NCBI GenBank assembly: GCA_902796945.1
Contig: CADBQR010000102.1
Coordinates: 1 to 49,876, forward strand
Direction of reading: 5' to 3'
Source of the DNA: an uncultured Acidaminococcus sp.
Lineage (GTDB): Bacteria > Bacillota > Negativicutes > Acidaminococcales > Acidaminococcaceae
Length of the DNA stretch: 49,876 bases
This document shows, one piece after another, positions 26,531 to 31,729 of the stretch; within the stretch, counting starts at the first letter, position 1; each line of letters starts with the position of its first letter. The notes beneath the pieces are model-generated. The model ran no database searches and was not told where the DNA came from. It worked only from the letters and a program-made list of their open reading frames with translations. Made by a program: the position numbers and the translations under genes.

Positions 26531-26538
26531 GTCCTTGT

Positions 26539-26572
26539 AAAAGTGTCGCTTTGAGCGGCACTTTTATTTTTT
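26539..26572 (+). terminator. Terminator after putP
   Basis: A 12-bp stem (26539-26550 with 26554-26565, one G-U) with a three-base loop is followed by an A and six T. Confidence 0.9.
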
Positions 26573-26653
26573 GGCAGGACCCCGATCCGGTATTTCCGGC
26601 TTCCTGTCTTTATTCAGGGCTTCCGGAGCGGCGGAAAGGGGTTGGAATTTTAC

Positions 26654-26682
26654 TTGTTTTGGGACGGGTTTTATATTATAAT
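26654..26682 (+). promoter_or_regulatory. Promoter of the DUF1934-argS leader
   Basis: TTGTTT (26654-26659), 17-base spacer, perfect TATAAT (26677-26682). It would start RNA near 26689, leaving a leader of about 230 bases before the first gene. Confidence 0.75.
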
Positions 26683-26688
26683 GCTATA

Positions 26689-26910
26689 TATTTGTGATTT
26701 TTGAGTTCCCACGAGAATGAAAAATCCGTTAATCTTGGTGGAAGCGTGGAGGCCGATGCGCGCAGGCGTGACTGCGATACCCTCACAGCCGAGATCCTCA
26801 TGCGAGGAAAGGTTCAGTATCATATTGAGACAATGATGAGGGCTTGCTCTTGTTGACGCAGCGGCTGCGGCCAGCACAAGGGGGCAATCCCTCACTTTAT
26901 TGTGTATGTG
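26689..26910 (+). ncRNA. Long structured leader RNA, class not recognised
   Basis: About 220 bases between a strong promoter and the ribosome site of the DUF1934 gene fold into successive helices. They are 26709-26716/26733-26741, 26746-26752/26781-26786 enclosing CGCAG/CTGCG (26761-26765/26772-26776), 26796-26799/26804-26807 and 26819-26827/26831-26837. A long arm then pairs 26838-26842 with 26889-26893 and 26844-26853 with 26876-26887, capped by CGCAG/CTGCG (26857-26861/26865-26869). There is no open frame, no T-box motif and no terminator. It could be a riboswitch, a leader acting on translation or a stable RNA; comparison with large ncRNA classes such as raiA is needed to name it. Confidence 0.55.
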
Positions 26911-26921
26911 AAGGAGGCACC

Positions 26922-27350
26922 ATGGTTCCGGTTAAGATCACGATCCAAAGTGAAAACAGGGAAATCCGGGAAGGACCCGCTACGTTTGTGGCCTTCGGGC
27001 AGCTGACGGAAAAGGGGGCGGCCACCTATGTCCGTTATACGGAAAGCAAGGTGACCGGAATGGATGGAACCAAAACGACGCTGAAATGGACCGATGACAC
27101 GCTGACCGTGATCCGGCATGGCACCTATGAACACCGTCAGTGTTACGAACGGGGGAGAAATACGGTTTTCCAGTACCGGACCCCTTATTTCAGTGTTCCC
27201 ATGTGTGTGTTTACCCGTCTTTTGACGACGTGGAAGGGTGAAAAGCGCTGGGAAGTGAACCTGGATTATGATATGGAAATCGATCATCGGCCGAACGGCA
27301 GCGTACGGCTGAAGATCGTGATTGAGGAGGAAGAAATCAGTGGACATTAA
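26922..27350 (+). CDS. DUF1934 (YwiB-like) beta-barrel protein
   Basis: The 142-residue protein matches the DUF1934 family in length and pattern: VKITIQSENREI, TYVRYTES, IRHGTYEHRQCYERGRNT, then a PYFSVPMCVFT strand and a C-terminal LDYDMEIDHRPNGSVRLKI. The fold is lipocalin-like; function unknown. AAGGAGG lies four bases before the ATG. It overlaps argS by 11 bases, the same arrangement as ywiB-argS in Bacillus, so a link to translation or arginine charging is possible but unproven. Confidence 0.85.
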   Translation: MVPVKITIQSENREIREGPATFVAFGQLTEKGAATYVRYTESKVTGMDGTKTTLKWTDDTLTVIRHGTYEHRQCYERGRNTVFQYRTPYFSVPMCVFTRLLTTWKGEKRWEVNLDYDMEIDHRPNGSVRLKIVIEEEEISGH

Positions 27351-28998
27351 GAATGTGTTGTCCGAAGCGGTAGCGGCTGCCGTGCAGAAAGCCATGGAGG
27401 AGGGAAAACTCAACAGGGGGGATTTGAATCCTGTTGTCCTGACCGTTCCGCCCCAGAAGGCTTTCGGCGATTTTGCCACGAACTTTGCCCTGCAGGCGGC
27501 AAAAAACCTGCACTGCGCACCGCGTGTCATTGCCGGTGCCGTCAAGGAAAACCTGGCATGTCCCTGTGTGGAGAAGGTGGAGATTGCCGGTCCCGGTTTC
27601 CTGAATTTCTACCTGAAATCGGACTGGCTGTACCAGTCGCTTTCCGATATCCTGAAAAAGGGAACTTCCTATGGGAATCTTCCCAAAAAGGATGGGGAGA
27701 AGATCCAGATTGAGTTTGTCAGCGCCAACCCGACGGGACCGCTTCATGTCGGTCACGGACGGGGTGCCGCCGTGGGCAGTGCCCTGGCCAACCTGATGAA
27801 GGCGGCCGGTTACGACGTAACCCGTGAATATTACATCAATGATGCCGGCAACCAGATGCATAACCTGGCGGCTTCCGTCAATGCCCGCTACCTGGAATTG
27901 TTCAATATTCCCTGTCCGTTCCCGGAAAATGGCTATCATGGCGAGGATATCGTGGTGACGGCAAAACGGATCAGGGAAAAGTACGGCGATGCCTTCCTTT
28001 CCATGGATGAAAACGAGCGGCTGGAGAAATTCCAGACCCTGGCCAAGGATGAAAAGCTGGCCGCCCTGCGGGAAGACCTGGCGGCCTTCAATTGCGAATT
28101 TGACGTGTGGTTCAGTGAGCAATCCCTCCACGATGCGGATAAAATCAATCAGGCAGTGGAAACCTTGCGCGAAAAAGGGTATATTTATGAGAAGGAAGGG
28201 GCCCTTTGGTTCAAATCCACGGAATTCGGCGATGACAAGGACCGGGTCGTGATCCGGGACAATGGGCTCTCTACTTACTTTGCTGCCGATATTGCTTATC
28301 ATAAGAACAAATTCGAGCGGGGCTTCGATCGGGTCATCAACCTGTGGGGCGCCGATCACCATGGCTATATCCCGAGAATGAAGGCCGCCATGCAGGCCCT
28401 GGGCTATCGCCCGGAACAGCTGGAAATCCTGATCCTGCAGATGGTCAGCCTCTATCGCAACGGGGAACTGGTCAAGATGAGCAAACGGACGGGCAAGGCC
28501 GTGACCCTGAATGAGCTGATTGAGGAAGTCGGGACCGATGCGGCCCGGTTCTTCTTCATCATGCGCAGCATGGACAGCCAGCTTGATTTTGACCTGACCC
28601 TGGCCACGGAACATTCCAATGACAACCCCGTTTATTACGTGCAATATGCCCATGCCCGCATTTGCAGCATCATGCGGCAAATGGAGGAAGAAAAGATCCA
28701 GCTGGATCCGGACTGTGACCTTACGGTCCTGACGGAACCGGTTGAGGTGGACCTGATCAAGAAACTGAACACCTATGAGGAACTGATTGAAACGGCAGCC
28801 GCGGAACGGGCCCCTCATAAGATTGCCCATTATGTCTACGAGCTGGCAGGTCTTTTCCATTCGTTCTACAATCAGTGCCGTGTGCTGGGTGTGGATCCTG
28901 CCGTGCAGCAGGCTCGCCTGGCCCTGATAACGGCGGTGGGCAATACACTGCGTCATGGTTTGATGATTCTCGGTGTGAGTGCACCGGAGCATATGTAA
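27340..28998 (+). CDS. argS: Arginyl-tRNA synthetase
   Basis: The 552-residue class I synthetase charges tRNA-Arg. It has the N-terminal Add-1 domain (about 1-90, QKAFGDFATNFA), HIGH as HVGH (136-139, in ANPTGPLHVGHGRG), KMSKR (379-383) and a C-terminal DALR anticodon-binding domain. GTG start at 27340 with GAGGAGG nine bases upstream, inside the end of the DUF1934 gene. Confidence 0.97.
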   Translation: MDIKNVLSEAVAAAVQKAMEEGKLNRGDLNPVVLTVPPQKAFGDFATNFALQAAKNLHCAPRVIAGAVKENLACPCVEKVEIAGPGFLNFYLKSDWLYQSLSDILKKGTSYGNLPKKDGEKIQIEFVSANPTGPLHVGHGRGAAVGSALANLMKAAGYDVTREYYINDAGNQMHNLAASVNARYLELFNIPCPFPENGYHGEDIVVTAKRIREKYGDAFLSMDENERLEKFQTLAKDEKLAALREDLAAFNCEFDVWFSEQSLHDADKINQAVETLREKGYIYEKEGALWFKSTEFGDDKDRVVIRDNGLSTYFAADIAYHKNKFERGFDRVINLWGADHHGYIPRMKAAMQALGYRPEQLEILILQMVSLYRNGELVKMSKRTGKAVTLNELIEEVGTDAARFFFIMRSMDSQLDFDLTLATEHSNDNPVYYVQYAHARICSIMRQMEEEKIQLDPDCDLTVLTEPVEVDLIKKLNTYEELIETAAAERAPHKIAHYVYELAGLFHSFYNQCRVLGVDPAVQQARLALITAVGNTLRHGLMILGVSAPEHM

Positions 28999-29009
28999 TT
29001 CTGTTATAG

Positions 29010-30653
<1,644 letters not shown>

Positions 30654-30760
30654 TTTTCGGAAACAGGGTGTGAGAATGAAGGTTGGCAGGCCGATCGGGA
30701 AAGTAATCGATCGCATGCCGGAAGCACCACTGATTTCTTAATGATTTGGAGGCGTACAAC

Positions 30761-31729
30761 ATGATCATGAACAGAGAATTGTCGATGGAATTTGTCCGGG
30801 TTACGGAAGCAGCCGCTATTGCCAGTGCCCGTGGTGTGGGCCGGGGTGACAAGAACGGCATTGACCAGCTGGCCGTTGATGCCATGCGTAAGATGTTCGA
30901 TACCGTCAATATCAGCGGTACCGTCGTAATCGGTGAGGGCGAGATGGATGAGGCCCCGATGCTTTATATTGGTGAACATGTCGGCGCGGGTGGTCCGGAA
31001 GTTGATATTGCCGTTGACCCCGTCGAAGGCACGAACCTGGTTGCCAAAGGGCAGAACGGCGCCATTGCGGTGATTGCCATTGCCCCGAAAGGGTGCCTGC
31101 TCCATGCTCCCGATATGTACATGGATAAGATTGCCGTAGGCCCCAGAGCCAAGGGCTGCATCAATCTGGATGATCCGGTCAGTGCCAACCTGGAACGCGT
31201 GGCCAAGGCCCTGAACCGTAAGGTTGCCGACCTGACGGTCGTTGCCCTTGACCGTCCGCGTCATCGCAAGATCATTGAGGAAGTCCGCGCTGCCGGTGCC
31301 CGGATCCGTCTGATCAGCGATGGTGATGTGGATCCGATCATCAATGCCGGTATCGAAGGGACGGGCGTTCACATGTACATTGGCCGCGGCGGTGCTCCTG
31401 AAGGCGTCCTGGCTGCTGCCGGGCTGAAGTGCCTGGGCGGCGATATGCAGGCCCGCCTGTGCCCTGAAAATGAGGATCAGGAAGAACGCTGCCGCAAGAT
31501 GGGCATTACCGATCTGAAACATATCCTGACCATCGATGACCTTGTAAAGGGCGACGATGTCATGTTTACGGCTTCCGGTATTACGAACTGCGACCTGCTC
31601 AGAGGGGTCAACTACTTCGGCAACGGCGCCCGTACGCATACGCTTTCCATGCGCTATGCAACCGGTACGGTCCGCTTCGTTGACGCTGTCCATACCTTTG
31701 ACCGCAGCAATATCAATATCAAACTGTAA
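30761..31729 (+). CDS. glpX: Class II fructose-1,6-bisphosphatase GlpX
   Basis: The 322-residue enzyme hydrolyses fructose 1,6-bisphosphate in gluconeogenesis. It shows GlpX motifs: NRELSMEFVRVTEAAAIASA, VVIGEGEMDEAPMLYIGE (metal-binding acids), AVDPVEGTNLVA, and GRGGAPEGVLAAAGLKCLGG. The ATG at 30761 has GGAGG eight bases upstream; the ATG at 30767 is also possible. A strong terminator follows. Confidence 0.95.
   Translation: MIMNRELSMEFVRVTEAAAIASARGVGRGDKNGIDQLAVDAMRKMFDTVNISGTVVIGEGEMDEAPMLYIGEHVGAGGPEVDIAVDPVEGTNLVAKGQNGAIAVIAIAPKGCLLHAPDMYMDKIAVGPRAKGCINLDDPVSANLERVAKALNRKVADLTVVALDRPRHRKIIEEVRAAGARIRLISDGDVDPIINAGIEGTGVHMYIGRGGAPEGVLAAAGLKCLGGDMQARLCPENEDQEERCRKMGITDLKHILTIDDLVKGDDVMFTASGITNCDLLRGVNYFGNGARTHTLSMRYATGTVRFVDAVHTFDRSNINIKL

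Follow-up and report, generated by a model that had tools for sequence, protein, structure and literature searches.

A family-specific hairpin in the 5′ leader of the DUF1934-argS operon of Acidaminococcaceae

A leader hairpin absent from Rfam, termed P2 here, precedes the DUF1934-argS operon in a 49,876-nt stretch of DNA from an uncultured Acidaminococcus sp. (the window; contig C102 of a 2.17-Mb assembly). P2 is real and specific to the family, and the rest of the leader in which it sits is unremarkable. Comparison of homologous loci indicates that P2 is an RNA hairpin of the DUF1934-argS 5′ untranslated region that has been selectively kept across Acidaminococcaceae. All coordinates below are positions in the window, and all features lie on its forward strand.

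The DUF1934-argS locus and its leader

The leader is preceded by putP (TIGR02121), which possesses its own intrinsic terminator (26537–26567), identified in a terminator scan as 14 base pairs followed by a T-run and separating putP from the DUF1934 transcription unit. The first gene of the operon (26922–27350, ATG at 26922) encodes a DUF1934 protein (PF09148, E = 7.9e-31) with 67% identity to its counterpart in Acidaminococcus massiliensis; eight further species among the compared genomes belong to the same genus as the window. The arginine–tRNA ligase gene argS (27340–28998; TIGR00456, 499 bits) begins a few bases before DUF1934 ends, and is followed by pyrG (CTP synthase, 29034–30653) and glpX (class II fructose-bisphosphatase, 30746–31729), both recognized by profile matches. 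The gene order DUF1934-argS was found at all 29 loci with sufficient sequence. An initial annotation of this DNA had suggested an argS-pyrG-glpX operon as a possible target of the leader; pyrG and glpX lie downstream, with no tie to the element.

The same annotation had placed a promoter far upstream of the first gene, and a promoter-like site (26649–26682) is indeed located about 240 bp 5′ of the DUF1934 ATG, past the putP terminator. A promoter scan selected TTTACT/TATATT (26649–26677), and TTGTTT-17-TATAAT (26654–26682) can also be read there. The promoter stretch TATATTATAATG..ATATATTTGT is common to the congeners G003, G006, and G007. On this sequence, the RNA is expected to start near 26688–26690, and the leader measures about 230 nt from the promoter to the DUF1934 start (26922).

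Folded as a whole, the 226-nt leader is only slightly more stable than dinucleotide shuffles (z = −1.76). Its variable 5′ part (26690–26835) displays neither excess structure (z = −0.19, with 79 of 200 shuffles folding equally well) nor conservation, aligning to Acidaminococcus congeners no better than shuffles do (z between −1.7 and 0.6). The "at least seven helices" described previously are not confirmed as a feature of this leader; as the split folding and the alignments indicate, they are what any sequence of such composition would be expected to yield, the terminal arm excepted. Two CGCAG/CTGCG hairpins are present as reported, the first (26761–26776) in the unconserved 5′ part and the second (26857–26869) forming the tip of P2, where the sequence varies in relatives. 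We rejected the leader as a large 220-nt noncoding RNA, given that its 5′ 140 nt lack both conservation and excess folding and that Rfam is blank.

The long arm previously noticed near the end of the leader is the 58-nt hairpin P2 (26837–26894), with arms UGAGGGCUUGCUCUUGU and ACAAGGGGGCAAUCCCUCA, and is identified by its folding, by a leave-one-out model, and by covariation in relatives. The segment 26836–26896 folds at z = −3.47 against dinucleotide shuffles, a value matched by 2 of 200 shuffles. A possible extension at the base of the helix, pairing ACAAUGA with UUAUUGU (26830–26903), appears in the predicted fold (z = −4.09) and was not seen by eye in relatives. Downstream, a U/G-rich linker that is similar in relatives leads into the Shine-Dalgarno sequence (26895–26917, with GGAGG at 26913–26917).

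Several further observations concern the window's leader. The motif CCCUCAC occurs twice (26780–26786 and 26889–26895) and has two possible partners, UGAGGG (within the 5′ arm of P2) and GUGAAGG (at the Shine-Dalgarno sequence); in the predicted fold of the window, CCCUCAC pairing would hide GUGAAGG at the Shine-Dalgarno sequence. An open reading frame of 39 amino acids (26717–26836) ends right at P2. A 26-codon frame (26756–26836), with GGAGG shortly before its ATG, ends exactly at the start of P2 and is probably a chance occurrence, since it has no counterpart in relatives. A conserved upstream open reading frame or leader-peptide attenuator was rejected, as the frames in the window's leader have no counterpart in congeners.

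Conservation and distribution of P2

The region upstream of DUF1934 was gathered from 53 genomes of Acidaminococcaceae. Across the family, arms of the kind GAG(C/G)CUUGC...GCA(G/A).CUC occur shortly before the Shine-Dalgarno sequence, and the stretch from P2 to the ATG aligns to congeners at z = 13–26. In an alignment of 22 relatives, 89.4% of the cells of the 12-pair helix are paired, and every slid register of the helix is much worse. Eight pairs show compensatory change, being altered on both sides among these relatives, a count that includes inheritance along with independent events. The covariation score of 0.400 compares with 0.247 ± 0.020 in shuffles, 0 of 500 of which reach it; such shuffles ignore relatedness, which makes this a strong result rather than a calibrated probability. 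Taken by itself, P2 folds in all species listed at about −18 to −30 kcal/mol, with a mean z of −3.7 against mononucleotide shuffles over 18 sequences (the window and 17 relatives). Conservation in relatives covers the lower helix and the linker that runs to the Shine-Dalgarno sequence, while the apical loop varies in both length and sequence. Across 33 rows, the helix contains 63 G-U cells versus 7 A-C cells, an excess that marks this RNA strand as the target of selection and that neither a DNA palindrome nor an RNA of the opposite strand would show. The conservation and compensatory change anticipated for the leader in relatives were thus found in the 58-nt terminal arm and not in the 220-nt multi-helix unit.

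In the sub-type to which the window's P2 belongs, a C·U mismatch replaces the C-G pair found in most genera. Model R2 was built from other sub-types, without that of the window, which accounts for the mere 16.6 bits that it gives the window's hairpin. A leave-one-out model (R3), built from the congeners G003, G006, and G007 with the window excluded, picked out 26837–26895 at E = 3.8e-11 and no other significant site in the window's genome, where the runner-up had E = 1.26. When run across the family, R3 matched only the four genomes of the window's sub-type.

Homologues of P2 precede DUF1934 in 14 of the 16 Acidaminococcaceae genera where DUF1934 was found (g1, g2, g3, g5, g6, g8, g9, g10, g12, g13, g16, and g18, and partly g14 and g17). 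The hairpin is absent before DUF1934-argS in g4, g15, part of g14, and most of g17, and the congener G002 is unreadable in the P2 region. In 59 genomes of the family, the strong R2 matches are all at the DUF1934 locus, with one locus per genome; a match at a contig end in G037 is this same locus. Beyond the family, inspection by eye of 40 sampled loci, almost all of them belonging to other Negativicutes families, revealed no P2-like hairpin, and most of these loci have a promoter close to the start codon. A class-wide model scan returned only weak matches outside Acidaminococcaceae, and a phylum-wide model scan added weak matches only. The best out-of-family match (G383/G429) was discarded as a terminator-like hairpin (AAAAGCTTGCCC..GGGCAAGCTTT) in an unrelated setting, followed by neither an ATG nor a Shine-Dalgarno sequence. 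P2 was not found in the sister families f3 and f4 of the same order, and family f2 carries argS without DUF1934 and without the hairpin. On the strength of this distribution, P2 looks to have arisen in Acidaminococcaceae and to have been lost later from a few genera.

Other elements were encountered at these loci. Upstream of P2, a second hairpin (P1), for example GUC..UUUUAGUGC / GCAUUAGAUUGAC, occurs in g8, g9, g14, and g18 (loci L042, L043, L045, L047, L037, and others) and is absent from the window. Compensatory differences in P1 are visible by eye in g8; in g9, g14, and g18 it is 93% paired, with 66 of 500 shuffles reaching its covariation score. Most members of g17 (L028–L031, L033–L035, L041, and L044) have DUF1934 without P2 behind a symporter-like gene, and a strong terminator-like hairpin with a T-run lies a few tens of bases before the Shine-Dalgarno sequence; this hairpin may be an attenuator or simply a terminator. 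The leader at L017 (G002:C8) contains the string GTATAAGAGACAG, which resembles a Nextera transposase adaptor end and is probably an assembly or adaptor artefact in the G002 genome.

Relation to known RNA classes

A search of the whole window against Rfam 15 at gathering score retrieved only two tRNAs (11–169). With the leader as query and E values up to 5, the only match was sR1, an unrelated snoRNA whose 9.9 bits against a cut-off of 45 are meaningless. The earlier statement that the leader lacks T-box, TPP, and cobalamin motifs agrees with the absence of any Rfam match at gathering score or at E up to 5. Membership in a known large noncoding RNA class, which had also been considered, can be set aside, as Rfam, including raiA, OLE, 6S, and riboswitches, gave no match and the 5′ 140 nt are unconserved. 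The description of a structured leader of uncatalogued class before DUF1934-argS is borne out by the Rfam blank, with the conserved part being the 58-nt arm.

Three kinds of known system invite comparison. T-box leaders (RF00230) are likewise structured and precede a synthetase gene in a Firmicutes lineage, but P2 is a single short hairpin without an antiterminator/terminator pair and without a covariance-model match; at gathering score and at E up to 5, RF00230 matched neither the window's leader nor the loci of six relatives. In operators of the type known from Escherichia coli thrS, the synthetase represses translation of its own mRNA by binding a hairpin there that resembles tRNA. P2 shares with these operators its place in the 5′ untranslated region of a synthetase operon, as a hairpin immediately ahead of the Shine-Dalgarno sequence, but differs in having no conserved anticodon- or tRNA-like loop (inspection of relatives found no conserved tRNA-like loop in P2) and in that the first gene encodes DUF1934 rather than a synthetase. 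By analogy, the thrS-type operator is the nearest functional counterpart of a putative control by P2. The ldh2 motif of Negativicutes, a lineage-limited candidate cis-regulatory motif from a comparative-genomics screen (PMC8632094), illustrates lineage-specific motifs, which P2 resembles as a compact conserved RNA of one lineage and one gene family and from which it differs in its location upstream of DUF1934-argS. The main texts of three such screens (PMC8632094, PMC6429828, and PMC8040213) mention neither argS nor Acidaminococcus.

Candidate functions of P2

We infer that P2 regulates, and assign a probability of roughly 45% to the reading that it acts in cis as a landing site for a protein that sets the translation or decay of the DUF1934-argS mRNA. 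Protein-mediated control is favored because helix and linker sequence are conserved beyond what pairing demands and because only the DUF1934-argS mRNA carries P2; a variable loop combined with a conserved helix and linker would also be more in keeping with binding by a protein than with a pocket for a metabolite. In its simplest version, ArgS or the DUF1934 protein, both encoded in the operon, would feed back via P2, and the bound protein would keep the ribosome off the Shine-Dalgarno sequence, which lies about 9–21 nt downstream of P2. Naming an operon-encoded protein as the trigger is a guess. It is improbable that P2 represents a new family of autogenous operators, with the hairpin bound by ArgS or by the DUF1934 protein to repress the operon that encodes them, and no tRNA-Arg-like loop for recognition by ArgS was seen in P2. 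Counting against control by P2 in general is the existence of DUF1934-argS without the hairpin in g4, g15, part of g14, and most of g17; its absence from several genera, the sampled other families, and f2 implies that any such control is dispensable for the operon.

A passive role is possible, though on balance doubtful: P2 may sense nothing and act as an mRNA stabilizer or insulator that blocks decay or shields the ribosome-binding site from the variable leader. The high stability of the helix everywhere (from about −18 to −30 kcal/mol), its placement just before the Shine-Dalgarno sequence, its variable loop, its loss in several genera, and the additional 5′ hairpin in the leaders of several relatives would all suit such a role, and the sequence record expected from passive stabilization is largely the same as that expected from control by P2. 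Such a stabilizer needs no set sequence, yet the lower helix GAG(C/G)CUUGC/GCA(G/A).CUC and the linker have been kept over many genera, and the DUF1934-argS mRNA is the only one to carry P2.

It is very unlikely that P2 operates as an RNA switch whose 3′ arm (CUC..) alternatively pairs with GGAG and hides the Shine-Dalgarno sequence. The 3′ arm is complementary to GGAG, and blocking the 5′ arm in G013, G014, G030, and G031 sharply lowers the predicted accessibility of the Shine-Dalgarno sequence, but many other relatives, and the window, show no such effect or the opposite one. Small hairpins that touch the Shine-Dalgarno sequence were predicted in 22 of 25 cases versus a mean of 20.3 with shuffled linkers, and 269 of 1000 shuffles scored as high. 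A helix sequestering the Shine-Dalgarno sequence was rejected as inconsistent among species and not above shuffled linkers; terminator scan, accessibility, and shuffled linkers together reveal no consistent Shine-Dalgarno or terminator platform.

Similarly unlikely is a DNA operator, in which the inverted repeat would bind a transcription factor and the RNA hairpin would be incidental. An inverted repeat downstream of a promoter can serve as a roadblock operator, but the spacing of the arms varies widely, the excess of G-U over A-C is unlike that of a DNA palindrome, and there is one site per genome. Also very unlikely is the metabolite riboswitch (for arginine, a nucleotide, or a metal) put forward initially. 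In its favor is a structured leader, conserved and without an Rfam family, ahead of a biosynthetic and tRNA-charging operon; against it are a single hairpin whose helix and linker are conserved but whose loop differs in both length and sequence, the lack of a conserved unpaired core or multi-helix junction in relatives, the lack of a consistent alternative structure, and the presence of one locus per genome with one target operon.

What had been read by eye as a large structured leader resolves, after folding controls and comparison with relatives, into one real hairpin. If P2 regulates, common gut anaerobes that use neither a T-box nor a known riboswitch at DUF1934-argS would possess a new cis-acting RNA motif for a tRNA synthetase operon, and one that lends itself to experiment. 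P2 would also give a starting point for learning what DUF1934, the companion of argS, does, and were the operator reading true, it would provide a first function for the DUF1934 protein family, as an RNA-binding regulator. For both argS and DUF1934, a protein family without an assigned function, P2 is a candidate point of control that can be tested.
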